Source: Gemmatimonadota bacterium (lineage in GTDB: Bacteria > Gemmatimonadota > Gemmatimonadetes > Longimicrobiales > Gaopeijiaceae). From it: a stretch of 57,479 nucleotides of DNA. The notes under the pieces were generated by a model that saw only the letters and a program-made list of their open reading frames with translations, searched no databases and was not told the origin of the DNA. The stretch spans positions 1 through 57,479 of the forward strand of contig JBBEBG010000038.1 of assembly GCA_040882465.1 (NCBI GenBank), written 5' to 3'. Made by a program: the position numbers and the translations under genes. Shown in pieces: positions 29,947-50,040 of this stretch (position 1 is its first letter; each line of letters begins with the position of its first letter).

Positions 29947-30732
29947 CTATAGTCCGGAGGGAACGTCGAGGAACTCCCAGGGGACGCCGAACTTCTCCCC
30001 GACGAGCTCCGCGAGGGCCTTCACTCCCCAGGTCTCCGTAGCATAGTGCCCCGCATAATAAACATTCACCCCCAGCTCCATCGCTTCCGTGAAGGTGTGG
30101 TGGGCTCCCTCCCCTGTCAGTAGGGCATCGAGACCGGCCTCCGCGGCCTCTCTTATGAAGCTCGCGCCGCCCCCGGTGACGACCCCGATCCGGCCGAGAC
30201 TTTCCCGGCCCCCGGGGACCAGCGTCACTGGTCCTCCGACCACCGCTGAGACCTTGTCGTGGAACGCTTTCCGCGAATCGGAGACAGACGCCTCGAAGCC
30301 GATCGGCGTGTCGGAAAAGTGCCCGAAACGCGCTCCGGGCTCGAGACCCAGCGCCTGGATAAGAACCGCCGCGTTTCCCAGCTTGGGGTGAGCATCGAGC
30401 GGGAGATGCGCACTGTAGAGCGCGATTCCGTTTTCGAGGAGGGGAAGGATCCTGCGATACCGGTGTCCGGTGAGGGGCCTCAGTCCCTCCCAGAACAGCC
30501 CATGATGAACCACCAGGAGGTCCACTTTCCGTTCGACGGCCGCCGCAACCGTAAGGGTGTTTGCATCCACAGCGGCGCCCACCCGGGTGACGGGCCCCGG
30601 TCCTTCGACCTGGAGTCCATTCGCGGCGCCCTCATAATCGGGAAACCCGGGAATCCCCAGGGCCGCGTCCATGAATTGGAGGACATCTTCTAATGCGATC
30701 GAGCCCCGGGACATCGTCGTCACTCCTTCCAC
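29947..30732 (-). CDS. Nif3-like dinuclear metal centre protein
   Basis: 261 residues of the Nif3/GTP-cyclohydrolase-I-type-2 family. Metal ligands are in LLVVHHGLFW, the ALYSAHLPLDAHP segment, GEGAHH and GHYATE. The family makes toroidal hexamers with a two-metal centre; the physiological reaction is unclear. The reading frame is preceded by a good GGAG site and a leader holding an inverted repeat (30747-30768). It is the gene immediately following the DnaA-box palindrome. Confidence 0.93.
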   Translation of the reverse strand: MEGVTTMSRGSIALEDVLQFMDAALGIPGFPDYEGAANGLQVEGPGPVTRVGAAVDANTLTVAAAVERKVDLLVVHHGLFWEGLRPLTGHRYRRILPLLENGIALYSAHLPLDAHPKLGNAAVLIQALGLEPGARFGHFSDTPIGFEASVSDSRKAFHDKVSAVVGGPVTLVPGGRESLGRIGVVTGGGASFIREAAEAGLDALLTGEGAHHTFTEAMELGVNVYYAGHYATETWGVKALAELVGEKFGVPWEFLDVPSGL

Positions 30733-30793
30733 AACCCGTTGTTGAGAAGGGGCCTCGGCGGCCCCCTTTCCCCGAATGTGATCATATAATGCA

Positions 30794-30831
30794 ATGACTT
30801 ACGGGATTGTCCACATCTGTGGATAAGTCAT
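30794..30831. promoter_or_regulatory. Palindrome containing two inverted DnaA boxes
   Basis: TTGTCCACA (30807-30815) and TGTGGATAA (30818-30826) are inverted DnaA boxes two bases apart. The second is the perfect TTATCCACA on the minus strand; the first has one change from consensus. They are nested in an outer inverted repeat, ATGACTTA (30794-30801) with TAAGTCAT (30824-30831). The neighbouring bases (TATAAT-like, 30785-30790) are AT-rich for this genome. It lies between the bactofilin stop and the nif3 promoter region, so regulation by DnaA or an origin-linked element are both possible. Confidence 0.55.
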
Positions 30832-30855: not shown

Positions 30856-31311
30856 TCACGGGAGGGCGCGCTTCTCTCGATCATGGGGGACGGGCCCGTC
30901 CTGGAGCGCCTCCCCTCGATCGGGAAACGACCCGCTCGCCGGCGGTGCGCCGACGTCAATGTCGCCCATGCGGATGTCCCCGTTGAGGACGGCGCCCTCC
31001 TCGAGTTGAACCCGTCGAGCGTGCACTTCCCCCTCGATCCGGGCGCTGCCCTGCACCTCTAGCCGTGAGGCGACCATCAGGGAGCCGACCACTTCACCGG
31101 CGATCACCGCGTCCTGCGTGCGGATTTCTCCATGGACCCCTCCTTCGGTGCCGACGACGACCGCCTTTCCGGCCCAGATCGAACCGCGAACATACCCTTC
31201 GACGCGCACCGTTCCTTCGGTCACGCAGTCACCGATGACCCGCATCCCGGGCCCGATGATGGAGATCGCCGAAGGGCTCTGTGCTTCGTCTCGTTCTTTG
31301 CCACGCGCCAT
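30856..31311 (-). CDS. Bactofilin
   Basis: 151 residues. The central bactofilin (DUF583) domain, about residues 15-115, is a right-handed beta-helix built of short Gly/Val-rich repeats (GTVRVEGYVRGSIWAGKAVVVG, GEIRTQDAVIAGEVVGS, GSARIEGEVHARRVQLEEGAVLNGDI). Flanking tails are disordered. Bactofilins self-assemble without nucleotides and serve cell-shape, stalk and chromosome-positioning roles. The gene follows the M23 peptidase by 59 bp on the same strand, a pairing known from shape modules such as CcmA/Csd1. Confidence 0.93.
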   Translation of the reverse strand: MARGKERDEAQSPSAISIIGPGMRVIGDCVTEGTVRVEGYVRGSIWAGKAVVVGTEGGVHGEIRTQDAVIAGEVVGSLMVASRLEVQGSARIEGEVHARRVQLEEGAVLNGDIRMGDIDVGAPPASGSFPDRGEALQDGPVPHDREKRALP

Positions 31312-31370: not shown

Positions 31371-32150
31371 TCAGGGCTGCGCCACCATTGCGAGGGGATC
31401 CACCGGCTCCCCTTCGAGAAAGATCTCGAAATGAAGGTGGGGTGCGGTGGACCGGCCGCTCGACCCGCTCAAAGCGATGATTTCGTTCCTCCGGACCAGG
31501 TCTCCCCGGGCCGCGAGGAGGAGGGACACATGGGCGTACCGCGTACGATACCCCTCCGCGTGGTCGAGAACCAGATAGCTCCCGTAGATGGGGTCCTCTC
31601 CAGCGTCCGCGACCGTTCCGCTCCCCGCCGCCCTCACGTACGAGCCGGCCGGAACGGCGATGTCGATGCCCGGATGGTCCGTCCCTCCGCCCTCGAGAAG
31701 CACCTGTGTCACGAACCCGGCTTCGGTGAGGGGCCAGCTCGTAGGAAGGAACTGTTCGGCCTCAGGGAGATTCGAGGCCCCGGAGGGGCGTCCCACCGCA
31801 GGGGGGAGCCAGAGCTCTTCCGTCGCGGGTGCCGTACCGGCACCGAACATATCCCGAATCCGAGCGTAGGCCGCCTCCACTTCGGCGAGAGTTTGCGCGA
31901 GCGCTTCGACTCTCTCTTCCCGGGCAAGTAGTTCCGTCACTTGCGCCTCGAGAAGCGCCGTGCGGTGTGCGCGGGCCGCCAGATACCACCAGCTTCCCAC
32001 GAATCCGACGAGGAGGACGAAGACGAAGGCGCCGGCCCCCACGACCCACGGGAGCTGTCGGTAAGGAATGCGGAGGGACCGGGTTCGCCCCCCGGAATCG
32101 GGAACGACCAGGAACGTTAGCAGACGATCTGAGTCCATCGGTCGTCTCAC
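31371..32150 (-). CDS. M23 family metallopeptidase, membrane-anchored
   Basis: 259 residues. A cytoplasmic start, one membrane helix (about 35-57) and a coiled coil (about 60-105) precede a LytM domain with all zinc ligands: HPGID (about 159), and the HLH of APHLHFEI (about 240); RYAHVS supplies the additional His. It should cut peptidoglycan cross-bridges in the periplasm. The ATG overlaps the parB stop by 4 bp, and bactofilin follows, so it is a probable scaffold-controlled hydrolase. Confidence 0.93.
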   Translation of the reverse strand: MRRPMDSDRLLTFLVVPDSGGRTRSLRIPYRQLPWVVGAGAFVFVLLVGFVGSWWYLAARAHRTALLEAQVTELLAREERVEALAQTLAEVEAAYARIRDMFGAGTAPATEELWLPPAVGRPSGASNLPEAEQFLPTSWPLTEAGFVTQVLLEGGGTDHPGIDIAVPAGSYVRAAGSGTVADAGEDPIYGSYLVLDHAEGYRTRYAHVSLLLAARGDLVRRNEIIALSGSSGRSTAPHLHFEIFLEGEPVDPLAMVAQP

Positions 32151-33058
32151 CCGATCAGGTCGGCGGGGTCACGTCCGGTGATCAGCTCGAAGACCCGTTC
32201 GAGATCCGCCGAAGAACCGAAGGGAATCTCGATAGACCCCGTTCCCTTCCGTCCGACCTTGAGCCGTACTCGGGTCCCCAGGGTTTCCTGAAGCGCCTCC
32301 TGGAGGGCCTGGGCGACCGGGTCCACCGAGCCTCCCGCCCGCGGCCGGCTTCGCCCCCTGGTTTTCCCCTTCCCGGCTTCACCTCGCACCCGATCCTCCA
32401 CGGCCCGCACCGTCCACCCCTCTTCGGCCGCCCGGCGCGCGAGCTCGGCGAGTTTTCCCGCATCTTCGACTGCGAGAAGGGCGCGGGCATGCCCCATGGA
32501 AAGGGACCCCTCCAGGAGATACCGGCGGACCGAGGGGGGAAGCTTGAGGAGACGTAGCGTGTTGGCCACCGTGGAACGGTTTCGCCCTACTGCCCCCGCG
32601 ATTTCACCCTGTGTGAGCCCGAACTCACGGGCGAGCAGCTCGAATCCCTCGGCCTCCTCGAGCGGATTCAGGGCCTCTCGCTGGATGTTCTCGACCAGGG
32701 CGAGGACGAGGAGCGTCCGGTCGTCCACCTCCCGCACCACGACCGGGACCTCCACCCAACCGAGCTCCGACACGGCCCGGAGCCGCCGTTCTCCGGCGAC
32801 GAGCTGAAATCGGTCCCCCTCTCCATCCGGGCCGGGGCGAACGACGAGCGGCTGCAGGAGACCGTGCTCCCGGATGGACTGCGCGAGATCCGCGAGCTCT
32901 TCCTTTTTGAACTCTCGCCGGGGTTGGAAGGGATTCGCGCCGATCCGCGCGACCGGGAGCGTCCGGACCTCGGACGGATCCGCCACAGGACCGAGATAAT
33001 CTTCACCCAGAAGGGCCCCAAGGCCCCGCCCCAACCTGTCTCGCTTGGCCGCGCTCAA
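32147..33058 (-). CDS. parB: Chromosome-partitioning protein ParB
   Basis: 303 residues. The N terminus carries the ParA-stimulating basic motif (KRDRLGRGLGALLG), the CTP-binding motifs around NPFQPRREF and AGERRLRA, and ENIQREALNPLEEA. The HTH that binds parS is FGLTQGEIAGAVGRNRSTVANTLRLLKLP. A disordered linker (KGKTRGRSRPRAGG) and the C-terminal dimer domain complete it. It spreads from the parS site at 33968. It overlaps parA and the M23 gene by 4 bp each. Confidence 0.96.
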   Translation of the reverse strand: MSAAKRDRLGRGLGALLGEDYLGPVADPSEVRTLPVARIGANPFQPRREFKKEELADLAQSIREHGLLQPLVVRPGPDGEGDRFQLVAGERRLRAVSELGWVEVPVVVREVDDRTLLVLALVENIQREALNPLEEAEGFELLAREFGLTQGEIAGAVGRNRSTVANTLRLLKLPPSVRRYLLEGSLSMGHARALLAVEDAGKLAELARRAAEEGWTVRAVEDRVRGEAGKGKTRGRSRPRAGGSVDPVAQALQEALQETLGTRVRLKVGRKGTGSIEIPFGSSADLERVFELITGRDPADLIG

Positions 33059-33873
33059 CGTGCCACCCCCTTCGCTGTGGACTTCTTCGCCCCGCCGGCA
33101 CCCCCCTTCTTCGCGCCACGCACGAACTCCTTCGCGAGCCCCAGATAACTCTGCGCCCCGGCGGAAAGGACATCGTAGGTGACGATCGGCTGGCCGAAAC
33201 TCGGCGCCTCCGCGAGCCGCACGTTCCGAGGAATAGTCGTGTCGAAGACTTTGGCGCCAAAATAGTCGCGGGCCTCGTCAGCCACCTGCTTCGAGAGGTT
33301 GAGCCTTCGGTCGTACATCGTGAGCAGAACCCCCTCGATTTCCAGGCGCGGATTCAACCCGCGTTGCACGAGGCGAACCGTGCTCAGGAGCTGGGAGAGC
33401 CCCTCGAGCGCATAAAACTCGCACTGGATTGGAATCAGGACGCTGTCCGCCGCGGTCAGCGTGTTCAGCGTCAGGAGCCCGAGCGAGGGGGGGCAGTCCA
33501 CCAGGATGTAATCGTAGCTGTCGCGAAGCCCCTCCAGCGCCCGGGCGAGGACCCGCTCCCGTTCCGGCCGGTCCACGAGCTCGATCTCCGCACCCACGAG
33601 GTCGCGACTGGACGGAATCAGGTCGAGGGAAGGGAAGTGAACGCCTTTCGTGACGCACTCCTCGGCCGGACGTCCCTCCACGACAAGATCGTACACAGTG
33701 GAGAGATCCTCTGACTTCTCGACGCCCAGCCCCGACGTCGCATTCCCCTGGGGATCGATGTCGATGATCAGGGTCCGGAGCTCGGCGACGGCGAGGGAAG
33801 CGCCCAGATTGATGGCCGTCGTGGTCTTTCCGACCCCGCCCTTCTGATTTGCGATGGCGACGACGCGGGACAT
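33055..33873 (-). CDS. parA: Chromosome-partitioning ATPase ParA
   Basis: 272 residues. The deviant Walker A motif is NQKGGVGKTTTAINLG, Walker A' is LIIDIDPQGN and Walker B is YILVDCPPSLG. The SKQVADEARDYF and EAPSFGQPI segments are the standard Soj ones. It ends in a Lys/Gly-rich basic tail (RGAKKGGAGGAKK), likely for non-specific DNA binding. The candidate -10 (TATATT, 33922-33917 minus strand) lies between the parS site and the start, so ParB bound at parS could act on this promoter. Confidence 0.96.
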   Translation of the reverse strand: MSRVVAIANQKGGVGKTTTAINLGASLAVAELRTLIIDIDPQGNATSGLGVEKSEDLSTVYDLVVEGRPAEECVTKGVHFPSLDLIPSSRDLVGAEIELVDRPERERVLARALEGLRDSYDYILVDCPPSLGLLTLNTLTAADSVLIPIQCEFYALEGLSQLLSTVRLVQRGLNPRLEIEGVLLTMYDRRLNLSKQVADEARDYFGAKVFDTTIPRNVRLAEAPSFGQPIVTYDVLSAGAQSYLGLAKEFVRGAKKGGAGGAKKSTAKGVAR

Positions 33874-33967
33874 GGGGCGCGTTCGGAATGAGGTCGAGCC
33901 GACTCAGAGGAGGTCGAATATACGTCGGGGGCTGCGATGGGGAAACCGCGAAGAGGGAAAGTGCGAT

Positions 33968-33983
33968 TGTTCCACGTGGAACA
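33968..33983. promoter_or_regulatory. parS centromere-like site
   Basis: A perfect 16-bp palindrome, TGTTCCACGTGGAACA, a known variant of the bacterial parS consensus (TGTTTCACGTGAAACA). It is 95 bp upstream of parA. It is the only copy I noticed in the window. Its presence inside 33874-34241 rules out the longer reading frame of the flanking glycosyltransferase gene. Confidence 0.93.
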
Positions 33984-34001
33984 GGCCCTATCGTCCAGAA
34001 T

Positions 34002-34045
34002 ACCGAATCTACACCGTATAGACACCGAATAGACGGCGAATCACC
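34002..34045. repeat. Helically phased 11-bp tandem repeats next to parS
   Basis: Four consecutive 11-bp units: ACCGAATCTAC, ACCGTATAGAC, ACCGAATAGAC and GGCGAATCACC (34002-34045). They share CCG.AT, and units 2 and 3 differ in one base; unit 4 is degenerate. They begin 18 bp from the parS palindrome. The 11-bp period places each unit on the same face of the helix, as for protein-binding iterons. No binding protein is known to me. The rest of 33874-34241 contains only promoter-like sequence. Confidence 0.6.
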
Positions 34046-34241
34046 TCCGGTCCCCGTTTACGGTGGTAGGGCAATTCCAGGTTGCGCTCGTCGTTTCGAG
34101 AGCGCGCCGCCCGCCATCGGATTCGGAACGTGCTTCGGCCCGCCGCCACTTGGCTTTGCCCCAAGCCGACCCCTAAGTTCCGGCCCGTTCCTGTCCGCAG
34201 TCATCCTGACGCTCGTTTTCTCCTGGAGGATTGGTCTGGAG

Positions 34242-35480
34242 TTGCGAAGTGGCTCGCGAAGCCTTGGCGGTCCGAGAAAGATCCTTTACTTGGACAATAC
34301 GACCACGTTCGGGGGTGCGATCAACAGCCTTGCGGAGCTCGTCGCCGGGCTGGATCCCTCCCGTTTCACCCCGATTGTCGCCACTCCCCAGCCTGAGGCG
34401 ACTCTCCGAGAGCGCCTTCCGGGAATAGAAACACGCCGGGTAAGACCGGTCCCGCACCGGAGTGCTCCACGGACAGAGCGACCGGGGCTCGAATCGAGCG
34501 GCCCTCGATCTCGATCCTCCACCTTCGGCCAGGACCGGGCCAAGACAGCTCTCCGTCTGCTCGGTGAGACCTCTCCCGAAGCCCTGCAAATCGCTCGATT
34601 GGCCCGCCGCGAGGGTGCGGAGCTGATTCACCTGAATAACAACCTCGAGAGTCAGGAGGCGGGAGTGCTCGCCGCGAGGCTCATCGGCCTCCCTTGCGTT
34701 GCGCACGCTCGAAGTTTTCAGGTCGGGACTAGATTTCTCCGTTGGATCGCGCGCAGGGTAGACCGGCATGTGGCGATATCGAACGCGATCGCCCAGAACC
34801 TTCGCGATCTCGGGATCCCGGAAAGCCGGATCGTCCTCATCCACGACGGAATTCGGTGCGACCGATTTGCCGATGTCCCTTCGCGGCACGAATGCCGAGT
34901 GGCTCTGGGAATCCCTTCCGGCTCCTTCGCTTTTGGGATTTTGGGGCGTCTCGTTCCCTGGAAGGGGATCGCAGAGTTCGTGGAGGTTGCCGCAGAAATC
35001 GTCCGCTCGGATCCCGACGCAACAGCCTTCGTCGTCGGCAGCGTCTCCGACGGCGACGACGATTATTACGACACACTTCGGGAAAGGGTGAACTCCCTCG
35101 GCCTTGCCGACCGCATCGTGTTCACCGGCTTTCGTCCCGACGTACGCCAAGCCATGGCCGCCATGGACCTCGTGGTTCATGCCTCCACGGAGCCCGAACC
35201 CTTTGGAATGGTCCTTATCGAGGCGATGTCTCTTGGCCGTCCGATCGTGGCGACTCGCGGCGGGGGCCCGGAGGACATCGTCCTCCACGGGGAGACCGGC
35301 CTCCTGGTGAAACGTGGGGCAATCCGCGAGATGCGAAATGCGATCGTGGAACTCAGGGAGAACCCAGAGCGGGCACGTGCGATGGGTGAAAAGGGACGGG
35401 ATCGGGTGCGCACGAACTTCAGCGCGGAGATTCACACCTCGAGAGTCTCACGGATGTACGACGAGCTGCTGAAGGAGTAG
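34242..35480 (+). CDS. GT4-family glycosyltransferase
   Basis: About 412 residues if TTG 34242 is the start; GGAGG lies 12 bp upstream. The start is uncertain, but the longer open frame would cross parS and the 11-bp repeats. The GT-B fold begins at KILYLDNTTTFGGAINSLAELV. The C-terminal donor-binding half has GRLVPWKGIAEFVEVAAEIV, FTGFRPDVRQAMAAMDLVVHAS and the EPFGMVLIEAM motif (EX7E-like), then GGPEDIVLHGETGLLV. It probably adds a sugar to a lipid-linked precursor. It faces the following minus-strand genes. Confidence 0.85.
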   Translation: MRSGSRSLGGPRKILYLDNTTTFGGAINSLAELVAGLDPSRFTPIVATPQPEATLRERLPGIETRRVRPVPHRSAPRTERPGLESSGPRSRSSTFGQDRAKTALRLLGETSPEALQIARLARREGAELIHLNNNLESQEAGVLAARLIGLPCVAHARSFQVGTRFLRWIARRVDRHVAISNAIAQNLRDLGIPESRIVLIHDGIRCDRFADVPSRHECRVALGIPSGSFAFGILGRLVPWKGIAEFVEVAAEIVRSDPDATAFVVGSVSDGDDDYYDTLRERVNSLGLADRIVFTGFRPDVRQAMAAMDLVVHASTEPEPFGMVLIEAMSLGRPIVATRGGGPEDIVLHGETGLLVKRGAIREMRNAIVELRENPERARAMGEKGRDRVRTNFSAEIHTSRVSRMYDELLKE

Positions 35481-35493
35481 ATGTCCGTCGCCC

Positions 35494-37539
35494 TCAGGAC
35501 AGTCCCGGGACGCACTCCCCCCGTGCCCGCCACTCATCCGAAGGGACTCGGTAGCTCTTGGCGCTTCCGCCGATGTTGGAGAAGACCTCCCACGCGGCGA
35601 GGCGCTCTCGCACCGCCGCGTCCCGTTCGCTGCGAATCCCGCGTGGGTCGGCGTGCAAAACGAGCCAGATGTCAGCCTCCGCTTCGCAGAGAACCGCGAG
35701 CAGATCTTCCTGGCGCCAGAGGAGGCCGGCCCCCGTCCACAACTCCCGCGTTCCCCCGGCCGTCGAGATGTCGAAGAACCGAATGCTCGGATGGAGCTCG
35801 TAGGCGAAGTCCACCTGCTCGAGATAATACGCGGACGCGGGCGGCCCGAAGATCACGATATCACCCACTTCCAGCCCCGCGTTCACGACCTCGGCCGGAG
35901 CCCGGTGATCGTCTCTCGGGACGAAATGCCCCCAACGCGCCGGAGTCATCCCAATCCCGTAGGCGACATCAGGCGTGTGAATTCTCGCGAGGCGCGAAGC
36001 GGAGTAGTCATCGGACACCCACATGAAGGCAACGAGCGCCGCCACCGTTCCGATCGCTCGCACTCGCCCCGCACGCAACACGACGCCCACCAACGTCCAA
36101 ATCGCCTCCGCCGCGAGAAGGAGAACGCTCGCGTACAGGAAAAACGTGTAGCGGCTGCTCTGCTGGTTCGTGGCGATCACCGCGACTGCGAGCACGCAGA
36201 CCAGGGGAACGCCGGCCAGGAATCGCCAGACGTCGGACCGCCGCTCGGCCAGGAGCTCCAGCGCCAATCGGGTCGCCAAGAGCAGTAGGAGGGCCACCGT
36301 CATCCTCGGCATGGCCCCGAGCCACGGCTGAAGCACGGGCTGATTCAAGGGCGGGTAGTTCAGAAGCTCCTTGGCAACGCCGTACGGGGCGAGTCCGCTC
36401 GTGAGGTGAAAGAGGCTCCAGACCAGGAGCGCCGCAACGCCCACCCCCACCAGCGCCGTGGTTCCCTCCCGCGCCCCATCCGTCCGAAGGAGCTCGGGGC
36501 GTAGGAGCCAGGTCCCGAGAACGAGGAAGAGCGCGGCGCCGAACAGCCCCAGGAGCGCGAGGAGAAGAACGAGTCCCCGAAACGCCAGGGCGAGGGGCTC
36601 CTGCCTCGACCGCCAGCCTCGCACCAGGATCCAACCCCCGATCGCCGCGAGCGCCAGGAGGAGCGCCGCCGCCCAGAACGGGCCCTCTAGGAGCCGCTCT
36701 ACCCCCAATGCGGGAGTCACGACCGGCCCGACCAGGCCCGTTCCCGATGCGGCCGTCTCTATCCCAATCCCCGGAGGGAGCCTCGGAGGCTGACCCATAC
36801 CCCGGAAGTCGGTGCGCTCCCAAAGGAACAACGCCGCAAGGACGGCCCCTGCCGCACCGACGCGGCCTGCGGAGGCGCGCAGGTCACCTCTGAGAAGCGG
36901 GATCGCGGCCAGGACCCATAAAAAAACGGCCCCGTCGTACACCAGAATGCCGGCTAGGGCCAACCCGGGCATCCACTTCCAGAGCCCTTTCGCGCCGTCC
37001 AACGAAACGCGCAGGAGGAGAACCGTCTGCCATAGGAATAGGGTTTGGAAGGGAGTGTACATCCGGCCGAAGCGGGCGAACTCGACCTCCCAAAGCGAGA
37101 GGCCGAAGAGGGCCACGGCGACCGCGGCGACCGGAGGACCCCCGAGTCGCCGTCCCATCAGGACGAGCGCCGGAATCGCCGCGAGGCTCGCAAGGGCGGG
37201 AACGATCCGGACCGACCACTCCGCAGCGCCCGTGAGCCAGAAGATGGGAGCGGTGAGGTACTGGAGAAGGAGTCCCCGCGGGTAATACCCACCCCCGGGG
37301 AAAGAGGGAATTCCTCGCTCGAGGATGTACCCGACCGAAGTGATGAGGTAATACTCATCCTCGGCGAGCGCCGCCCGGCCGAGCGCGAAGAGACGCACGA
37401 AGACTGCCGCGACCGCGGCCGCGATCGCGAGCGCCCACCATCCGCGGGCGCCCCAGAACGTCTCCCCGGACCCACCAGTGAGGCGCGATTCGCCTCGTGT
37501 CCCTTCCGGCAAGGCGGACTCCCGATCAACGGCGCTCAT
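35494..37539 (-). CDS. GT-C fold membrane glycosyltransferase, PMT/ArnT-like
   Basis: 681 residues with about 11-13 membrane segments by hydrophobicity. The first periplasmic loop has an acidic pair followed by aromatics (AEDEYYLITSVGYIL), the expected place of the catalytic Asp of GT-C enzymes using polyprenyl-phosphate sugars. A soluble C-terminal domain of about 180 residues (VGDIVIFGPPASAYYLEQVDFAYELHP) follows. The substrate is unknown; transfer of a sugar to polysaccharide or a protein is inferred. The start overlaps the preceding GT4 gene's stop by 4 bp. Confidence 0.75.
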   Translation of the reverse strand: MSAVDRESALPEGTRGESRLTGGSGETFWGARGWWALAIAAAVAAVFVRLFALGRAALAEDEYYLITSVGYILERGIPSFPGGGYYPRGLLLQYLTAPIFWLTGAAEWSVRIVPALASLAAIPALVLMGRRLGGPPVAAVAVALFGLSLWEVEFARFGRMYTPFQTLFLWQTVLLLRVSLDGAKGLWKWMPGLALAGILVYDGAVFLWVLAAIPLLRGDLRASAGRVGAAGAVLAALFLWERTDFRGMGQPPRLPPGIGIETAASGTGLVGPVVTPALGVERLLEGPFWAAALLLALAAIGGWILVRGWRSRQEPLALAFRGLVLLLALLGLFGAALFLVLGTWLLRPELLRTDGAREGTTALVGVGVAALLVWSLFHLTSGLAPYGVAKELLNYPPLNQPVLQPWLGAMPRMTVALLLLLATRLALELLAERRSDVWRFLAGVPLVCVLAVAVIATNQQSSRYTFFLYASVLLLAAEAIWTLVGVVLRAGRVRAIGTVAALVAFMWVSDDYSASRLARIHTPDVAYGIGMTPARWGHFVPRDDHRAPAEVVNAGLEVGDIVIFGPPASAYYLEQVDFAYELHPSIRFFDISTAGGTRELWTGAGLLWRQEDLLAVLCEAEADIWLVLHADPRGIRSERDAAVRERLAAWEVFSNIGGSAKSYRVPSDEWRARGECVPGLS

Positions 37540-38762
37540 GGCGCCCGTGCCGGTCGCGCCCCGCCGCCGGAAGCGCTTAGAATCGTCTCGTCGAACACCC
37601 TTTCGATCCCCCTCACCTGTCCCTCGATCGAAAACCGCTCCCGCGCGTCGGCGAGCGCCGCGCGGCCCAGCCGTTCCCGCAGCCCGACGTCCCCGACGAG
37701 GCGTCCCAGCTTCGCGGCCAGGTCCCGCGCGTCGCCGGGCTCGAAGAAGAGTCCGGTGACGCCCTCACGGACGATCTCCTGCATTCCGCCCGTGCGGGCG
37801 GCCACCAGGGGTAGCCCCGAGGCGGCCCCCTCGATCAGGGCCACCCCGAATGCCTCGGCGCGCGAAGCCAACACGTTGATGTCGAAAATGTCTCGGTACC
37901 AGGGGGCCGGGTCGCGGAGGTCGCCGGCGAACGTCACCTGGTCCGCGATCCCGAGCTCCGCTGCGAGCCGCCTGAAACCATCTGCGTCGGGGCCGCTTCC
38001 GACGAACGCCACGTGTACGGGCGCGCCGGCGCCGAGAAGATCCGCCGCCGCTCGGATCAGGAGGTCCACACCCTTGCGATGGATCAGGCTTCCCACCTGA
38101 CCGACGACCACCCGGTCGAGCGGAATCCCGGCCCGCTCGCGCGCATGGCTCCGCGCCTCCGCATCGTCGCTTGGGCGGAAGCGGGTGAGATCCACGCCGT
38201 TGTGGATGACGTGGATTGCCCCGCGGAGGCGCGCCTTTCGCACGATCGAGGCACGTACTTCGTCGCTGCAGAAGAGGACCGCGGGGACCCTTGGGATCCG
38301 GTACAGGTGGATGTCTCGCCGAATGTAGAAGGAGTGGACGTAGGACACGCAGGGGATGCGCCCTCGGTTCCCCGCATAATACGCGACCATGGAGGGCTGG
38401 CCGTTCATGCAGCAGAGGAGGTCCACCCCGAGGCGTCCCGCTAGGTCACGAAGGGCACGCACGGTACGGAGCCACCGAATCGGCTCGATCCGGGTCCGGA
38501 GTCCGTCAACCCAGATCGTGGGCCGGTCGATGACGAAGGCCTCGACGCCGGCGGTGCGCACGGCCTCGGCCAGGCTCTCGTGGTTACACGCGACGTACGG
38601 CTGAAAGCGAGTGCGGTCCAAGCGCCGCACGAGCTCCAACAGCACGGTCTCGGTGCCGCGGATCCAGTTCTCGCCGTAATGCACGAAGAGGACCCTCACA
38701 GGGAGCCCCTTCACCGCGTGTCCGGGAGCGGTGTCTGTCACCACCTCGGGGCGAATGCTCAC
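37536..38762 (-). CDS. GT4-family glycosyltransferase
   Basis: 408 residues with a GT-B fold. The acceptor half opens VRVLFVHYGENWIRGTETVLLELV. The donor half has VGQVGSLIHRKGVDLLIRAA, FVGSGPDADGFRRLAAELGI and SRAEAFGVALIEGAASGLPLVA (EX7E-like). It is one of a tail-to-head set with its neighbours. It is part of an operon running from 39901 to 35494, with 4-bp overlaps between all three genes. Confidence 0.9.
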   Translation of the reverse strand: MSIRPEVVTDTAPGHAVKGLPVRVLFVHYGENWIRGTETVLLELVRRLDRTRFQPYVACNHESLAEAVRTAGVEAFVIDRPTIWVDGLRTRIEPIRWLRTVRALRDLAGRLGVDLLCCMNGQPSMVAYYAGNRGRIPCVSYVHSFYIRRDIHLYRIPRVPAVLFCSDEVRASIVRKARLRGAIHVIHNGVDLTRFRPSDDAEARSHARERAGIPLDRVVVGQVGSLIHRKGVDLLIRAAADLLGAGAPVHVAFVGSGPDADGFRRLAAELGIADQVTFAGDLRDPAPWYRDIFDINVLASRAEAFGVALIEGAASGLPLVAARTGGMQEIVREGVTGLFFEPGDARDLAAKLGRLVGDVGLRERLGRAALADARERFSIEGQVRGIERVFDETILSASGGGARPARAP

Positions 38763-39901
38763 CGCGCTCCGCCCGCCGCACGGTAGAGGGCGAGGTATCG
38801 ATCCATCATCGCCTCGAGTCCATATGCCGCCGCCGCGACCTCGCGGCCGCGGGCTCCCATCCGTGCCGCCTCGGCCGGGTCATCGAGAAGCCGCACCGTC
38901 GCTTCGGCCAGCGCCTCGGCGTCTTCGGGGGGCACGAGCAGACCGGTCTCCCCGGAGCGGACGACCTCCGGAATCCCCCCCACATCGCTCGCCACGACCG
39001 GAAGCCCCACCGACATCGCTTCGACGATAGCCAGCGGAAGGCCCTCGCTACGGGACGGATGGACGAAGAGGTCGGCCGCGTGAAGGAGCGACGCCACGTC
39101 CCGGCGAAGCCCGAGAAAACGCACCCGCGAGGTGATGCCGAGGGCTCCGGCCAGAGCCTGGAGCGGCTCGAGTTCCTCGCCTCGGCCTGCGATCGCCAAC
39201 ACCCACGGGGAGAGATCGGTCCGCTCGGCGATCCGCGCCACCGCCCGGAGGAGGACGTCGTGTCCTTTCACGGCATAGAGATTTCCCACGGCGAGGAGGA
39301 GCCGCTCATCCGGCCCGATTCCGAGTGCGGCCCGTGCGGCGGCCCGCTCCCCGCGAGGCACGGGAACGCCGTTGGGGATGACGATCCAGGTGTCGGCAGG
39401 CGTTCCGAGCCGATCCACGAGCTGTCTTCGCGTCGCCGCCGACACGGTGGTGGCCGCGCTCGCTTGCCGCACGGCCCACCGAATCGCGATACGACGGCGC
39501 AGCCGCTCGGGAAAGGCCTGCGCCGAGTGGAGGGTCACCACGGAGGGGACGCCACAGAGCCGACCCGCCGCCGTCGCGAATACCGACATCGTGAACTCGT
39601 GAGCGTGCACGACCGACACCTTCTCCTCGATCAGAAGACGCCTCAGGCGGAGGACACACCCCGCGTCGAGCGGATGGTCGAGCCGGAAGGTGCGCGGCGC
39701 GAAACCGCGCGCCTCGAGCTCCGAGCCGAGCCAACCGACACCCCGCTCTGGCAAGATCGGGACCACCCCGAGCCCGCGCTCTCGCAGTCCGACCGCGAGG
39801 TGGATGAGCATCCATTCGGCTCCACCCGGCCCATCCGACTCGAGTGCGAGCGCGACGGTCATGGGCGGCGCATCGGGGGGTGAGCTCTCGGACCGCGTCA
39901 T
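38759..39901 (-). CDS. GT4-family glycosyltransferase
   Basis: 380 residues. The acceptor half has DGPGGAEWMLIHLAVGLRERGL and VVHAHEFTMSVFATAAGRLCGVPSVVTLHS. The donor half carries VGNLYAVKGHDVLLRAVARI, RFLGLRRDVASLLHAADLFVHPSRSEGLPLAIVEAMS (full EX7E) and VASDVGGIPEVV. It is the first gene of the minus-strand three-gene operon and is divergent from the amidotransferase gene at 40130. Confidence 0.92.
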   Translation of the reverse strand: MTRSESSPPDAPPMTVALALESDGPGGAEWMLIHLAVGLRERGLGVVPILPERGVGWLGSELEARGFAPRTFRLDHPLDAGCVLRLRRLLIEEKVSVVHAHEFTMSVFATAAGRLCGVPSVVTLHSAQAFPERLRRRIAIRWAVRQASAATTVSAATRRQLVDRLGTPADTWIVIPNGVPVPRGERAAARAALGIGPDERLLLAVGNLYAVKGHDVLLRAVARIAERTDLSPWVLAIAGRGEELEPLQALAGALGITSRVRFLGLRRDVASLLHAADLFVHPSRSEGLPLAIVEAMSVGLPVVASDVGGIPEVVRSGETGLLVPPEDAEALAEATVRLLDDPAEAARMGARGREVAAAAYGLEAMMDRYLALYRAAGGAR

Positions 39902-40129
39902 TCGTCGCCGCCCTCGGCGTTCCGTCCCTTCGACCGGCGACGGCCGCCCGGGATGGGGAAATCAGTCGGGAAACGGAAATCAGCGGGAAGGTAACGTGCG
40001 CTCGGACGATCGCCCAACGGTCACGCACCAGGTGGTCCCGTTCTTGCTAACTCGGGCGTGTCGCGGGATGATTCGCTCGGACCTTCCCATGCAGAGCGTC
40101 GGACCCATCGGAGGAACAAAGCTTCCAAG

Positions 40130-42112
40130 ATGTGCGGTTTTGCCGGGATTTTTCAGGGCCCTCCAACCGATCCGGGGCGTCTCGCCGCGGACGCCAGGAG
40201 GATGGCGGAGCTCCTCCGCCACCGAGGTCCAGACGACGACGGCGCGTGGGTAGATCCCTCCGGGCGGGTCGCCTTCGCCTTCCGGCGGCTCGCGATCCTG
40301 GATCTGTCCCCGGGCGGACACCAGCCCATGGTCTCCGGCTCCGGACGCTACACGATCGTCTTTAATGGCGAGGCCTACAGCTTCGAGGCGATCCGGCGCG
40401 AACTCGGGATCCCCCGGAGCGAATACCGGGGCGGGTCCGACACAGAAGTCATTCTCGAGGCCTTTGACCGGATGGGGGTGGAGGCGACGCTCGAGCGAAT
40501 GATCGGGATGTTCGCGATTGCTCTCTGGGATCAGGAGCGCCAGGAGCTCCTCCTGATCCGCGACCGGATGGGAATCAAGCCCCTCTACGTCGCCCAGACC
40601 TCGGGGGGAATCGCCTTCGGTTCGGAGCTGGGCGCCGTCACACGGGCACCCGGCCTGGATCCGGCGGTGGACCTCGCCGCGATCACCAGCTTCCTCCGCT
40701 ACCTCTACGTCCCGGCGCCAGGCACTCCCTTCCGCGACGTGCGAAAGCTCCTGCCGGGCCACCTCCTCCGTATCCGCGATCCGCGCGGGCCACTTCCCAA
40801 GTCCGAGCCCTTCTGGTCGCTCGGCGCAGTCCGCGCCCGAGCCATGCCGCTCCGAGATTCCAGCCCTTCCGATGACGAGGCCGTGGACGCGCTGGACGCC
40901 CTCCTGTCGGACGCCGTGCGACTCCGCATGGTCGCCGACGTCCCGGTGGGTGCGCTCCTCTCCGGCGGGATCGATTCGAGCCTGGTCGTCGCGCTCATGC
41001 AGGAGCACTCCGACCGGCCGGTCCGCACCTTCACCGTCGGGTTCGACCATCCGGAGCACGACGAGTCGGTCCACGCTCGCGGCGTGGCGGCCCACCTCGG
41101 AACCGACCACACCGAGCTTCGCGTGACCGGGACGGACGCGCTTCGCCTGGTGCCCCAACTTCCCGAGATCTTCGACGAGCCGCTCGCCGACCCCTCGCAG
41201 ATCCCGACTTACCTCATCAGCCGCCTTGCCCGCGAGAGCGTGACCGTGGCCCTCTCCGGAGACGGCGGGGACGAGCTCTTCGCGGGATACAACCGCTATC
41301 GCGACGGCCCCGCGATGGCGAGGCGGCTCTCCGGTCTTCCCGCCATGCCCCGGCGGTGGATGGGTGCGGCGATCCGGGCACTCCCCGCTCCGACGTGGGA
41401 CCGCCTGGGCGATCTGCCGTTCATCGGCGCCCGAATTCCGCGCCTCGCCGGACAGAAGGCCCACAAGCTCGCCCGCATGATGCGGGATGGGTCGCGCGCC
41501 GATACGTACCAGACGCTGATGTCCATCTGGGACGAGGCCGAGCGATTGGTCCGGAACGGATCCGGCGGCGCGCCCGACCCCGTGCGCGCGATGCTCGAAG
41601 GGAGCCCCAACCCCCTCGCGCTCGACGAGATGCTCCTTCTCGACCAGACGTATTACCTCCCCGACGATCTCCTGCAGAAGGTGGATCGGGCCAGCATGGC
41701 GGTCAGCCTGGAGGTCCGCGTCCCCCTCCTCGACCACCGAGTGGTCGAGGAGAGCTGGCGGCTCGGCGGTGCGATGAAACTGCGGGGAGAGGTGGGGAAG
41801 TGGATTCTCCGGGAGATCCTTTACCGCCGCGTGCCCCGCGAGCTGATCGAGCGGCCGAAGACCGGATTCTCGGTTCCCGTGGAGGACTGGCTCGCCGGCC
41901 CGCTCCGGGAGTGGTGCGAGGACCTCCTCCTCTCCGCCTCGCCGGCGCGCGACGCGATTCTCGAGCCGCGCGAGGTCCAGGCCGCATGGAAGCGCTTCCG
42001 GAAGGGGCGCACCGAACTCGCGCTGGGGATCTGGAGCGTGGCGATGCTCGAGGCCTGGCGCAGGCACTGGAAAATCGAGAACCTCTCCGAGGCCGGCGCA
42101 TGCGCGTCCTGA
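40130..42112 (+). CDS. asnB: Glutamine-dependent asparagine synthetase-like amidotransferase
   Basis: 660 residues from ATG 40130, preceded by GAGGAAC. Met removal exposes the N-terminal nucleophile Cys2 (MCGFAGIF). The class II glutaminase domain shows LLRHRGPDDDG, RRLAILDLSPGGHQPM and FNGEAY. The synthetase half carries the PP-loop motif LLSGGIDSSLVVALM. The length and position suggest a locus-specific amidotransferase that makes amide-modified sugars or peptides, as in exopolysaccharide clusters, rather than the housekeeping enzyme. It overlaps the next gene by 13 bp. Confidence 0.93.
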   Translation: MCGFAGIFQGPPTDPGRLAADARRMAELLRHRGPDDDGAWVDPSGRVAFAFRRLAILDLSPGGHQPMVSGSGRYTIVFNGEAYSFEAIRRELGIPRSEYRGGSDTEVILEAFDRMGVEATLERMIGMFAIALWDQERQELLLIRDRMGIKPLYVAQTSGGIAFGSELGAVTRAPGLDPAVDLAAITSFLRYLYVPAPGTPFRDVRKLLPGHLLRIRDPRGPLPKSEPFWSLGAVRARAMPLRDSSPSDDEAVDALDALLSDAVRLRMVADVPVGALLSGGIDSSLVVALMQEHSDRPVRTFTVGFDHPEHDESVHARGVAAHLGTDHTELRVTGTDALRLVPQLPEIFDEPLADPSQIPTYLISRLARESVTVALSGDGGDELFAGYNRYRDGPAMARRLSGLPAMPRRWMGAAIRALPAPTWDRLGDLPFIGARIPRLAGQKAHKLARMMRDGSRADTYQTLMSIWDEAERLVRNGSGGAPDPVRAMLEGSPNPLALDEMLLLDQTYYLPDDLLQKVDRASMAVSLEVRVPLLDHRVVEESWRLGGAMKLRGEVGKWILREILYRRVPRELIERPKTGFSVPVEDWLAGPLREWCEDLLLSASPARDAILEPREVQAAWKRFRKGRTELALGIWSVAMLEAWRRHWKIENLSEAGACAS

Positions 42113-43332
42113 AGCTCTGGACGTCGGAGTATCCTTGGGACGTGCGAGTCGAGAAGGTCTGCCAGGCGTTGACCGCGGGCGGCCACGCCGTGCATCTCCT
42201 CGCCCGGAACCGAACCCGCGACGCGCTCCGGGAGACCTTCCCCGAGTGCGTCGTGCACCGGATGCGTCCATGGAGCCGGCTCGGCCGGCGCATGGACGCC
42301 GCCTCTCAGTTTCCGGCCTTCTGCAATCCGCGCTGGATGCGGCACATCCTGAAGGTGGGACGGGCCGAGCAGGTGGACCTCATCCTCTGCAGGGACCTTC
42401 CCCTCGCGCCCGCCGCCGTCTGGGCGGGCCGCCGGCTCGGCGTCCCCATGGTCCTCGACATGGCCGAGAACTATCCGGCGATGATTCGGGATCTCTGGCT
42501 CACGGGTGCCACCAGGTTCGGGGACACGCTGGTCCGGAACCCGCGAGCGGTCGAAGCGGTCGAGCGCTGGACGGTGCGGCGCGCGGGCCACATCGTCGTC
42601 GTGGTCGAGGAGTCCCGGGACCGGCTTGTGGCCCTCGGCGTCCCGCCCGATCGGATCACGGTCGTGGGAAACACCCCATCCGCCAGCCGACTGGACCGCT
42701 TTCCGTTTCCCCGTCCCCGCGACGAGGAGCCCCGCGGCCGCCTCGAGGTCGTTTACCTGGGGCTCCTCGAGAAGGCCAGGGGGGTGGGGACGGCGATCGA
42801 GGCGGTAGCCCTCTGCCGGGATCGGGGCGTCCCGGTGGGCTTTACCATCATCGGCGACGGGCGAGGGCGACAGGCCTTCGAGGAGGACGCCACCGCCCTC
42901 GGCCTCACCGGCGACGAGATCCGGTTTCGCGGATTCCTTCCCTACGATGAAGCGCTCGATATCGTCGCCGGGGCGGATGTCGGCCTGATCCCCCACCTCG
43001 CCCACGAGAGCTGGAATTCTACCATCCCGAATAAGCTATTCGACTATATGTCGGCCGGCCTCACGGTCCTCGCTTCCGATGCCCGACCCACCCGTCGGGT
43101 GATCGAGGAAACGGGATGCGGCCTTTGGTTTCGGAGCGGGGACGCGGAGCACCTGGCTGAACAGATGGAGGCGCTATGGCGCTCGGAGACACGCAAGGCG
43201 CACGCGGGGGCGGGGCGAGCCGCGATCCGCGACCGCTTCAACTGGGAGACGGACGGTGCGCGGCTGGTTGCGGCACTCGAGGGGCTCGCCCGGGGACCCC
43301 GGGCAGACTCACGGGCCCCGTCCAGTGCCTGA
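42100..43332 (+). CDS. GT4-like glycosyltransferase
   Basis: 410 residues starting at ATG 42100 inside the asnB end. It has the N-terminal acceptor half MRVLKLWTSEYPWDVRVEKVCQAL and the donor half LEVVYLGLLEKARGVGTAIEAVAL, FRGFLPYDEALDIVAGADVGLIPH and NSTIPNKLFDYMSAGLTVLAS. The canonical EX7E motif is not visible; the PNKLFDYM version is that of several WsaF/ExpE7-type transferases. It most likely extends the lipid-linked oligosaccharide. Convergent with the deacetylase gene. Confidence 0.87.
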   Translation: MRVLKLWTSEYPWDVRVEKVCQALTAGGHAVHLLARNRTRDALRETFPECVVHRMRPWSRLGRRMDAASQFPAFCNPRWMRHILKVGRAEQVDLILCRDLPLAPAAVWAGRRLGVPMVLDMAENYPAMIRDLWLTGATRFGDTLVRNPRAVEAVERWTVRRAGHIVVVVEESRDRLVALGVPPDRITVVGNTPSASRLDRFPFPRPRDEEPRGRLEVVYLGLLEKARGVGTAIEAVALCRDRGVPVGFTIIGDGRGRQAFEEDATALGLTGDEIRFRGFLPYDEALDIVAGADVGLIPHLAHESWNSTIPNKLFDYMSAGLTVLASDARPTRRVIEETGCGLWFRSGDAEHLAEQMEALWRSETRKAHAGAGRAAIRDRFNWETDGARLVAALEGLARGPRADSRAPSSA

Positions 43333-43351
43333 CCGCCCCCGGCCCGCGGAG

Positions 43352-44254
43352 CTACCGCTGGACTACGCCAGAGACGCGAAGTTCGAAGCCTTCGTCCGAA
43401 ACGCCCGCCGGAATGTTCAGGCGCGGCGTGCGAAATGGGTCCCACCCGGATTCTGGGACCCAGCCACCCGCGATCTCGAGGGCGCCCCAGTACCCGATGC
43501 CGGCCGCGATCCGGCCAACCGCGGGGGAGTTGAACCCGTAAGGGCAGGCGAGCCACCGGCTGGGGCGCTCGACCGAACGCTCCAGCCAGTCCCAGCTCGA
43601 GCGGAGATCGTCGCGGAGGCGGTCCTCCTCGAGTGCGGCCAGGTTTCGATGGCTCCAGCTGTGGCTCCCGAAGCGAATCGCCCCCTCTCGGTCGCGGAGG
43701 TACGGGGAAAGAAGCTCCATCCGTGCCGGGCGGCGCCACTCGGAGGAGGACTTCCGGCGCCTCGGATCGCCGGCGAGGAATCGCGAGACGTCGCCATCGT
43801 CCCCCGCGAGCTCCTGAAAGACCTTCCCCTCCGCCCCGCGAGCATCGAAGACATCCCACCAGAAACGTTCCGCATCGAGGAGACCGGGACAGAGGAAGAC
43901 GGTGGCCGGAAGCTCCCTCCGGAGAAGCTCGGGGAGGGCCAGCTCCACCGCTTCCCGATAGGCGTCATCGAAGGTGAGCGCCACCCGAGGTTTCCCTCGG
44001 GGTTCGACCGAGCCGGCCGAGTCAGGAGACTCGAGCGCTACGATATGCGATGCTCGCTCGAGGAGGTCGAGCTCCTTACGGAAGCGCGACAAGGGGAGGT
44101 GGAGCGAGTCCGGAGCAGCCGCCGCGTCTTCGTCCGGGACCACGTTGTGGTACGCCAGGATCAGGAGGCGTCCCGCGCGCCGCGGGCGCACGGCGCGCGC
44201 GTACCCCGCCCCAACGAGAATGCGCTCCACCGCGTGTTTCACGAAGGATTTCAT
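43352..44254 (-). CDS. Polysaccharide deacetylase (CE4/NodB-type)
   Basis: 300 residues. The metal-site motifs are TFDDAYRE (Asp-Asp) and HSWSH (His-x3-His), with LACPYGFNSPAVGR as motif 3. NILAYHNVVP-like N-terminal strand LLILAYHNV is typical. Members remove N-acetyl groups from polysaccharide; export or cytoplasmic site cannot be decided because no signal peptide is seen. It is the only minus-strand gene between two plus-strand polysaccharide genes and reads divergently from the next. Confidence 0.9.
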   Translation of the reverse strand: MKSFVKHAVERILVGAGYARAVRPRRAGRLLILAYHNVVPDEDAAAAPDSLHLPLSRFRKELDLLERASHIVALESPDSAGSVEPRGKPRVALTFDDAYREAVELALPELLRRELPATVFLCPGLLDAERFWWDVFDARGAEGKVFQELAGDDGDVSRFLAGDPRRRKSSSEWRRPARMELLSPYLRDREGAIRFGSHSWSHRNLAALEEDRLRDDLRSSWDWLERSVERPSRWLACPYGFNSPAVGRIAAGIGYWGALEIAGGWVPESGWDPFRTPRLNIPAGVSDEGFELRVSGVVQR

Positions 44255-44292
44255 GGAGCGGAAGGATCGTTGGCGGGAGGGGGAGGGACAAG

Positions 44293-45444
44293 GTGGAGCC
44301 GTTGATCCGACTTCGCGTCCTCCAGGGCGACCAGGGCGACGAGATCCGTGAAGCGTGGATCTCGCTCCTCCCGCGAGAGCGGTGGAGGTTTTTTCTCCAC
44401 CCGGACTGGTTCGAGATCGCGCGGGCGAGCTACTTCCCCCGGGCCCGCGTGCGGTATCATGTCGCCTACGAAGGGGACCGGATCGTGGGGATCCTTCCCA
44501 CCTCGCGGCGCCGGATGAACCGCTTCGGCCTCTTCCTTCCGGTGGTGGACGCCCTCGCGGGAGGACGGGGCGATTACTCTCTCCCGATCACGGGGCAGGA
44601 GGCCCGGCCCGAAGTCGTTCGTCCCCTGCTCGAGTCGGCCCTCTCCAGCGCGCGCGGGGCAGGGACGCTGGTCCTTGCGAACCTCCCGGTGGAAACCGGA
44701 GTCCCCGGGATTCTCGAATCGCTACTCGAGGAGCGGGGGCTCCCCTTTCGTCACGTGGAAGCACCTTCCCTCACCCTCTCCCTCCCCCCCACCTTCGATG
44801 AGGCGGAGGCGGCGATGAAGAAGGGCCTCCGTGGCGATCTTCGGCGCCAGGCGAAGCGAATCGAGGAGTCGGTGGGGCCGCTGGACTTCCGAGTGGTGAC
44901 CGACCCGGAAGAGGCGAAGGCCCACCTCCCCGGCCTCTTCGAGATGCACGACCGTCGCTGGCTCGAGGCCGGCCTCCCCGCCTCCTTCGAAGATCGCTCC
45001 GCGAGAGACTTCTACTACGGAATGATCGAGAAGCTCTGGGGGGAGGGACTCCACTTCTCCCTCCTGAGGGCGGGAGAGCGGGTGATCGCCTACCATGTGG
45101 GAGCCGTTGGAGGGGGATACCTCCTCTACTACAAACCCACCTTCGACCACACCCTTCAGAATTACTCTCCCGGGAAGCTTCACCTCCGCTTCCTCCTAGT
45201 GCATGCGATCGAGGCGGGGCTCAGCGGAATCGACTTCCTCCAGGGGACGGAAGGGTACAAGCGCGACTGGGCTTCGTCGGTCACGGAGTGCGGGAGCTAC
45301 ACCGTGCGGACCCGGCGCGTCAGCCCGTCGTACTTCTGGCTTGCGTGCGGCCGGCCCTGGACGGAGCGGGTGGTCGGACCGGCCTACAATCGCTGGGTCG
45401 CTCGCTTCGAGCGACTGGTCAGGCGTCGAGCGGAACGAGGGTGA
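44293..45444 (+). CDS. FemAB-like GNAT acyltransferase (CelD/BcsL-like)
   Basis: 383 residues from GTG 44293, chosen because GGGAGGGACAAG lies just before it. The protein has WRFFLHPDWFEIA, the DDGSLGILPTSRRRMNRFG-type first domain and the second GNAT domain FRVVTDPEEAKAHLPGLFEMHDRRW...HFSLLRAGERVIAYHVGAVGGGYLLYYKPTFDHTLQNYSPG. This is the architecture of FemAB-like proteins found in cellulose and exosortase-type polysaccharide loci. It probably acylates or amino-acylates a sugar. The last 26 bases overlap the next minus-strand gene. Confidence 0.85.
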   Translation: MEPLIRLRVLQGDQGDEIREAWISLLPRERWRFFLHPDWFEIARASYFPRARVRYHVAYEGDRIVGILPTSRRRMNRFGLFLPVVDALAGGRGDYSLPITGQEARPEVVRPLLESALSSARGAGTLVLANLPVETGVPGILESLLEERGLPFRHVEAPSLTLSLPPTFDEAEAAMKKGLRGDLRRQAKRIEESVGPLDFRVVTDPEEAKAHLPGLFEMHDRRWLEAGLPASFEDRSARDFYYGMIEKLWGEGLHFSLLRAGERVIAYHVGAVGGGYLLYYKPTFDHTLQNYSPGKLHLRFLLVHAIEAGLSGIDFLQGTEGYKRDWASSVTECGSYTVRTRRVSPSYFWLACGRPWTERVVGPAYNRWVARFERLVRRRAERG

Positions 45445-46039
45445 GGTGGGACCTCCAGAGCGTTCGCCGGTATTCGAGACGCCGGGGGGCTCGGAACCCG
45501 CACTTCTCGAATGCGGAGATCGAGGGCCGGTTGGCAGGATGGACGACGGCGACTGCCCGTGTCAGTCCCCGCGCCTCCGCCCTGCGGAGGATCTCGCGGA
45601 GGGCGAGAGCCTGGCACCCCCGTCGCCGGAAGCCGGGGAGGGTGAACATATCGTAGATTCCCGCGGCGCCCGCCGCGGCGAAGACGGGAAGGCCCGGATC
45701 CAGGGGGAGCCGGTGGGAGGCCATCCATGCGACGTGCGCCAGCGAACCGTCCATGAAAATTCCGAGGCAGAGGTCCCCATCCGCGAATCGGGCCCTCAGG
45801 TCATCCGGATAGTGGACCGCCTTGAAGAAGTGGTGGAGGAGAAGGTCCTCCATCGTCATCGTGCGGAGCTCAGTCCCCGGGGCGAGTTCCGGTGCCGCCG
45901 GCGATTCGAGGTCCATCTCGAAGAGGAGCCAGGCCTCCGCGCGATAAAAGAGGGCTACGAGGCGGCCTGCGACTTTCCGGAGAACCACGCCCACGCCGCC
46001 GTGCTCGAGATTGTACCGCAAAGCGCGGATGGCTCGCAT
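45419..46039 (-). CDS. GNAT family N-acetyltransferase
   Basis: 206 residues from ATG 46039 (MRAIRALRYNLEHGG); the frame is open to 46222, but without family similarity. The CoA site is in YDMFTLPGFRRRGCQALALREILRRAEARGL, followed by AVVHPANRPSISAFEKCGFR, the canonical GNAT end. The substrate is probably a sugar amine given the context. Convergent overlap with the FemAB-like gene is 26 bp. Confidence 0.85.
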   Translation of the reverse strand: MRAIRALRYNLEHGGVGVVLRKVAGRLVALFYRAEAWLLFEMDLESPAAPELAPGTELRTMTMEDLLLHHFFKAVHYPDDLRARFADGDLCLGIFMDGSLAHVAWMASHRLPLDPGLPVFAAAGAAGIYDMFTLPGFRRRGCQALALREILRRAEARGLTRAVAVVHPANRPSISAFEKCGFRAPRRLEYRRTLWRSHLTLVPLDA

Positions 46040-47916: not shown

Positions 47917-47918
47917 CG

Positions 47919-50039: not shown

Positions 50040-50040
50040 G

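Follow-up and report, generated by a model that had tools for sequence, protein, structure and literature searches.

The window, by which we mean the whole 57,479-nucleotide stretch of DNA analysed here from a Gemmatimonadota genome, carries on its minus strand, in this order, the chromosome-partition genes parA and parB, a gene for an M23 peptidase, a bactofilin gene, an array of DnaA boxes and nif3 (Table 1). DnaA boxes are the motifs of DnaA, which initiates replication of the chromosome. The array stands at the 3' end of the parA-parB-M23-bactofilin block and directly before nif3. The nif3 start was set at the ATG at 30714; the mechanically called open reading frame opens at a GTG at 30732. 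A long open reading frame past nif3, running towards it, had no Pfam match. The preliminary description of this DNA had placed parS about 3 kb from the boxes, and the parS-like sequence upstream of parA indeed lies 3.1 kb from the box pair. After parA (33849-52508) the window carries glycosyltransferase, ABC transporter and O-antigen ligase genes, whereas in relatives, genome G004 for example, mnmG and dnaA follow within about 12 kb; a phage-type integrase gene lies near the left end of the contig (1220-2596).

Table 1. Features at the array and in its neighbourhood (window coordinates unless a contig is named)
Feature	Position	Strand	Basis and remarks
nif3 (PF01784 DUF34_NIF3)	29947..30714	-	Pfam; downstream of array
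Putative weak DnaA box 3, TTCTCAACA	30740..30748	-	Motif scan; 1 mismatch to TTNTCCACA
Promoter-like TGGACA-16-CATTAT	30786..30813	-	Consensus match only; first hexamer within box 2
Interval of the preliminary description, 8-bp inverted arms at both ends	30794..30831		Inverted-repeat inspection
TAAGTC, fits YAASTY	30796..30801	-	One outer arm, read after the pair in the nif3 sense
DnaA box 2, TTGTCCACA	30807..30815	+	Motif scan; same pair before nif3 in relatives
DnaA box 1, TTATCCACA	30818..30826	-	Motif scan; perfect, oriented towards nif3
Bactofilin gene (PF04519)	30856..31311	-	Pfam; upstream of array
M23 peptidase gene (PF01551)	31371..32150	-	Pfam
parB	32147..33058	-	Pfam
parA	33055..33873	-	Pfam
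parS-like TGTTCCACGTGGAACA	33968..33983	+	2 mismatches to TGTTTCACGTGAAACA; just upstream of parA
dnaA-dnaN gap, own genome	L118 about 1528-1827, contig C13		Degenerate DnaA boxes and CTACTACTACTACTG

The window genome is assembled in 41 contigs; mnmG has its best match on contig C15, dnaA lies on C13, and the nearer end of the window contig is 26.6 kb from the site. Therefore, as far as the assembly shows, the par block does not lie beside these genes here. In 19 relatives, picked for having nif3 and dnaA on one contig, the start of nif3 lies 6.6-14.7 kb from the start of dnaA, with parA and parB between them in all, the M23 and bactofilin genes as well in 18 of the 19, and mnmG also in G004.

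Boxes 1 and 2 form a convergent pair with a gap of 2 bp. This is the perfect and near-perfect inverted pair, two bases apart, that had been described previously, and the motif scan recovered it as such. A putative third, weak box, overlooked in that description, lies 78 bp from box 1, start to start, and the same spacing class (78-79 bp) is found in genomes G021, G009, G017 and G234. An imperfect inverted repeat, GAGAAGGGGCC / GGCCCCCTTTC (30744-30770), is located between the array and nif3 and overlaps box 3. Taken singly, the boxes are unremarkable, because the four matches with at most one mismatch in the window (2.0 expected) were also reached in 15 of 100 shuffles. Across the window genome, TTNTCCACA occurs 44 times, compared with 41 for a reversed control; among the 30 of these 44 boxes that were inspected, the one at dnaA-dnaN has another three near-matches within 200 bp; of the rest, three have one each and 26 have none. 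The pair, however, is remarkable: from the genome-wide box rates, convergent pairs at 10-12 bp would be expected by chance at 0.0004 per whole 3.5-Mb genome. The exact pattern TTNTCCACAN{1,3}TGTGGANAA was found in 6 of 298 genomes of the phylum (reversed control, 0), in all six just upstream of nif3.

Conservation of the boxes was analysed at 94 of 95 nif3 loci (G265, whose contig stops at nif3, was omitted; f5, a family that is large within the class, lies outside the sample). Within 450 bp before nif3, TTNTCCACA was present in 53 of 74 genomes of the same order, with 98 boxes and a single one in the reversed control; by family, the counts were 41/61 in f1, 6/7 in f2 and 6/6 in f3. Other orders of the class gave 1/20 (1/14 in f4 and 0/6 in f6, f7 and f9 together). 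These statistics are uncorrected for the tree, and the start codons of relatives were extrapolated and may be off by about 15 bp. A looser convergent pattern, TCCACA-N2..20-TGTGGA, preceded nif3 in 7/14 f4 genomes (reversed control, 0) and in 0/6 genomes of f6, f7 and f9. Among named records (79 of 80 loci; L316, having no upstream DNA, was left out), TTNTCCACA occurred before nif3 in 10/25 from Gemmatimonadota and 1/50 from Verrucomicrobiota, compared with 1/25 and 0/50 for the reversed control; one of these records, L292, titled Longimicrobium sp., has three strict boxes there. The strict boxes are biased in orientation, 80 of 98 pointing along nif3. No strict box was found before nif3 in 21 of the 74 genomes of the order, several of which have bactofilin beside nif3, and in G022, G008, G027 and G014 there was no box within 330 bp of nif3 even at one mismatch.

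The spacing of the boxes is conserved as well. Counting convergent pairs in all members of the order with at most one mismatch in each box, we found 18 at 11 bp, start to start, 5 at 12 bp, 1 at 10 bp, 2 at 14 bp, 2 at 15 bp and 4 at 22 bp; 35 of 74 genomes have a 10-12 bp pair whose mismatches total no more than two. Boxes on the same strand gather near spacings of 11, 23, 35, 46, 56, 66, 78, 91 and 101 bp. Their best period was 11.1 bp, with an R of 6.16 (88 genus-level distances of 15-140 bp, the genera being not fully independent), and the maximum in 2000 jitters of up to 6 bp was 3.75; when each distinct distance was used once (41 values), R was 3.53 and was reached by none of 2000 nulls. 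Divergent spacings gave an R of 4.26 at 11.6 bp (42 distances), and convergent spacings beyond the close pair showed no phasing (19 distances, best R 2.0). In relatives a further box lies 78-103 bp from the pair, and the distance from array to nif3 start differs widely.

An alignment of nine chosen 100-bp spans from family f3, two of them identical (G028, 100 bp, and G026, 97 bp, were left out), had the outer boxes at fixed columns and diverged sequence between them. The first and last boxes were intact in 9/9 spans, the second was degenerate in two, and the third lacked its last A in 9/9. A search for two same-strand boxes 76-104 bp apart returned 35 places in 32 of 99 genomes of the order (reversed control, 1), of which 21 were at nif3 (12 by tblastn, 9 by coordinates), 4 before ribonucleotide reductase (RNR) genes, 1 at dnaA-dnaN and 6 elsewhere; the window genome was not among the matches, and the nif3 check covered all places but the three in G306, G307 and G309. 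The site has at least two clustered boxes outside oriC and is conserved in relatives, two features of extra-origin DnaA-box clusters. On the strength of these comparisons, we consider it highly probable that the site is a real extra-origin DnaA-binding array.

The conserved unit is the box pair rather than the 38-bp palindrome in which the preliminary description had set it. The outer arms of that interval, ATGACTTA (30794-30801) and TAAGTCAT (30824-30831), do match at 8/8 positions. However, their centre is displaced 4 bp from that of the box pair, the second arm has TAA in common with the perfect box, and no outer repeat was seen among the 35 listed convergent pairs of relatives. The palindrome was overstated because the arms are not concentric with the pair, and as a single unit it was rejected; the box pair itself was found beside nif3 and bactofilin genes in relatives.

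Genomes in which the neighbourhood differs bear on which gene the array follows. In G017, G128 and G009 the M23 gene reaches near the boxes and bactofilin was not detected, yet the boxes still precede nif3, which weakens the idea that the array follows bactofilin only. Bactofilin was also not detected in G211 and G286, but the gap there, about 470 bp, is long enough to contain a divergent gene. In the outgroups G205 and G188, where nif3 is far away, strict boxes lie behind bactofilin and before a SLOG-type gene, and none lies before nif3; the G188 boxes are 15 kb from dnaA, and in G205 dnaA was not found within the 40 kb examined. With more than 1 kb between bactofilin and nif3, G133 and G207 each have a one-mismatch box in the gap (by scan in G133, by eye in G207). 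The gap in G150 holds no box, and the G171 contig ends before the gap. These par loci come from 8 of 12 genomes, G049, G166, G186 and G304 being left out with weak M23 matches only. A nif3-only operator is weakened by G205 and G188, which keep boxes at the par operon without nif3, and the site may therefore be tied more closely to the par locus than to nif3. The par locus appears, from these few genomes, to be the more constant partner.

Arrays of similar geometry stand at other genes. Strict boxes 76-78 bp apart directly precede RNR genes in G004 (L231 1501-1586), G090 (L227), G099 (L226) and G187 (L238), the assignment resting on Pfam for G004 and on reading of the translated frames for the other three; by our reading, these are probably class II enzymes. 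The RNR leader of the window genome has three one-mismatch boxes, CTCTCCACA and two of TTTTCCACG. A strict box lies upstream of dnaA in 18 of 28 genomes (34 loci minus 4 with short upstream DNA, the window genome included, and minus 2 without the nif3 region). Boxes at dnaA and at nif3 occurred together in 17 genomes, at dnaA only in 1, at nif3 only in 5 and at neither in 5 (Fisher p 0.013, with no tree correction).

The layout has been kept in many relatives, and it is therefore probable that the cluster is a control switch. The reading to which we lean, tentatively and at a little less than an even chance, is that its main output is control of transcription of the downstream gene by bound DnaA. 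Three things incline us this way: the overlap with a promoter-like sequence, the bias in box orientation and the comparable spacing before RNR genes. DnaA would bind the array cooperatively as a phased complex and, with box 2 over the -35-like hexamer, would meet RNA polymerase there. When DnaA is abundant, probably as DnaA-ATP, the complex would block or gate transcription into nif3, and relief of this block would come after initiation. Both a DnaA-controlled promoter and a titration site had been proposed for the locus beforehand, and both are strengthened by the conservation, the phasing and the promoter-like overlap.

Precedents in Escherichia coli bear on transcriptional control. RNR genes are DnaA targets there (PMC11317965; PMC8203912), and E. 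coli DnaA is reported to bind mostly tandem double boxes 2-3 bp apart, including those at RNR promoters, DARS and datA (PMC11317965). The DnaA-regulated promoters of nrdA, nrdD, polA, purH and dnaA share with the pair described here boxes 2-3 bp apart, and RNR genes have arrays here too; the E. coli double boxes are tandem, whereas the close pair here is convergent. The bound regions in Table 1 of PMC11317965 do not include nif3, and the main text of the DUF34 review does not contain the term DnaA. Among the papers listed from an open-access library, none deals with DnaA control in Gemmatimonadota, judged by title and start of abstract. Several of our own results speak against transcriptional control. 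The boxes of G205 and G188 precede a SLOG-type gene, with nif3 lacking a strict box and the par locus as partner; the distance from array to nif3 is widely variable and 21 of the 74 genomes have no strict box; the far convergent spacings are unphased; and the promoter-like sequence, one match at the site against a shuffle mean of 0.1, is a weak one.

Alternatively, the array could be an origin-proximal DnaA control element, acting by titration, datA-like inactivation or DARS-like reactivation, with the neighbouring gene incidental. Shortly after the origin fires, DnaA bound there would then change how much free DnaA there is or which nucleotide it carries. We regard this as a serious rival, with the balance somewhat against it. 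The distances to dnaA in the 19 relatives and in G188 favor such an element. So do G205 and G188, where the par operon has boxes although nif3 is elsewhere, and a phased geometry that persists despite the variable distance to the gene. Against it, the closeness to the origin rests on relatives, mnmG and dnaA of the window genome being on other contigs; two to four boxes would titrate few molecules; and a similar spacing is found at RNR genes.

Comparison with known control elements leaves likenesses and differences. In Bacillus subtilis, removal of all six extra-origin DnaA-box clusters leads to early initiation, which suggests that such clusters restrain initiation, although the same review states elsewhere that their role is not significant (PMC5295017). 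The oriC-proximal clusters of B. subtilis are, like the array, DnaA-box clusters outside oriC; the array differs from them as a single cluster, conserved at the par operon, whose boxes include a convergent pair and are helically phased. In E. coli, DnaA boxes become denser towards oriC (PMC12371093). The DARS of E. coli have opposed boxes I and II as their hallmark, where ADP-DnaA molecules meet head to head (PMC8682772), and an opposed pair in a noncoding region is common to DARS and the array. In our own mapping of the E. coli MG1655 DARS1 and DARS2 cores, however, boxes I and II are 14 bp apart, followed by 12 bp, start to start, to a third box in tandem with the second. The pair here is usually spaced at 11 bp, with the further box 78-103 bp away; the window has 11 bp and no tandem third box 12 bp on, and only 2 pairs among order members are at 14 bp. 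The datA locus also has its boxes outside oriC, and their spacing matters (PMC4585315); datA needs IHF between its boxes. A bolder version seems unlikely to us: the 2-bp convergent pair and phased boxes would form a catalytic element like DARS or datA, which would have evolved separately and have its anchor in the parABS operon. If it were true, the phylum would set the state of DnaA at the same locus that segregates new origins.

We consider it improbable that the motifs resemble DnaA boxes by coincidence and belong instead to an operator for a different dimeric regulator or to a par-operon terminator. In the f3 alignment, an inverted repeat between the first and second boxes of the alignment (columns 24-54) directly precedes a T-rich DnaA box. 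Of its 9 pairs, 5 show two-sided changes and 7 are broken in one or more sequences, with only a small covariation term. This repeat may be an RNA hairpin or the operator of a second protein. YAASTY, a motif picked after inspection of the sequences, follows the convergent pair by 3-9 bp in 11 of 30 f1/f2 pairs (null mean 0.35, maximum 3 in 2000 shuffles). The f3 repeat, with its partly compensatory changes, and YAASTY both favor another regulator, and therefore other factors may act here. On the other side, the 9-mer TTNTCCACA is found both as single copies and in tandem, it stands upstream of dnaA, some genomes also have it in the dnaA-dnaN gap, and its A and T forms fit the DnaA consensus TTWTNCACA (PMC4585315, PMC12371093). 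Hairpin and terminator readings of the window were dropped, as the RNA hairpin was not exceptional (z -0.84) and a terminator scan at the site found none.

The preliminary description had also suggested part of a bipartite origin, and had named GC skew as a check. The closeness of strong, conserved boxes to parAB and to a parS-like site would suit a chromosomal origin, or half of a bipartite one. However, in the 200 kb examined of two single-contig relatives, the cumulative GC-skew minimum fell at 3,126,439 in G004 and 2,467,116 in G022, each time no more than 0.4 kb from the dnaA-dnaN gap and some 12 kb from nif3. The skew is weak, and when G004 was sampled coarsely at 20 points, those at 3.80 and 4.01 Mb went slightly against the sign expected from an origin there. 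The skew of the window is mostly negative from 17 to 42 kb and near zero at 28-31 kb, with no sustained change of sign at the site. The dnaA-dnaN gap of the window genome carries degenerate boxes and CTACTACTACTACTG, which we take to resemble a DnaA-trio run, and is likely the chromosomal origin; trio-like runs were also found in this gap in 7 of 19 relatives. Between dnaA and dnaN, G022 has five copies of TTTTCCACA (2467320-2467494), and it has no strict boxes before nif3 or dnaA. A bipartite oriC, with boxes in the gaps flanking dnaA, was rejected, since nif3 lies 6.6-14.7 kb from dnaA in the 19 relatives and on another contig in the window genome. The array shares with oriC several boxes, mostly on one strand, and differs in having no skew minimum in G004 or G022; G022, G008, G027 and G014 lack boxes, even at one mismatch, within 330 bp of nif3. 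Because the skew minima and the trio-like and box features lie at the dnaA-dnaN gap, the array is most likely not the origin, and we judge an origin or half-origin at the site to be very improbable. For the preliminary description the outcome is divided: the origin lies elsewhere in relatives, yet the box pair is present in them.

That the boxes arose by chance and have no function, as their genome-wide count equal to that of the reversed control might suggest, is scarcely credible against the conservation and helical phasing.

How DNA sites beyond oriC control replication has been worked out in detail in E. coli and to a lesser extent in B. subtilis. A geometry-conserved array beside parAB would be a defined element of this kind in another, little-studied phylum, the Gemmatimonadota. 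It allows one to ask what is controlled, whether the amount of DnaA, its nucleotide state or the expression of nif3, and its phased spacings lead to direct predictions for the DnaA complex that would form there.
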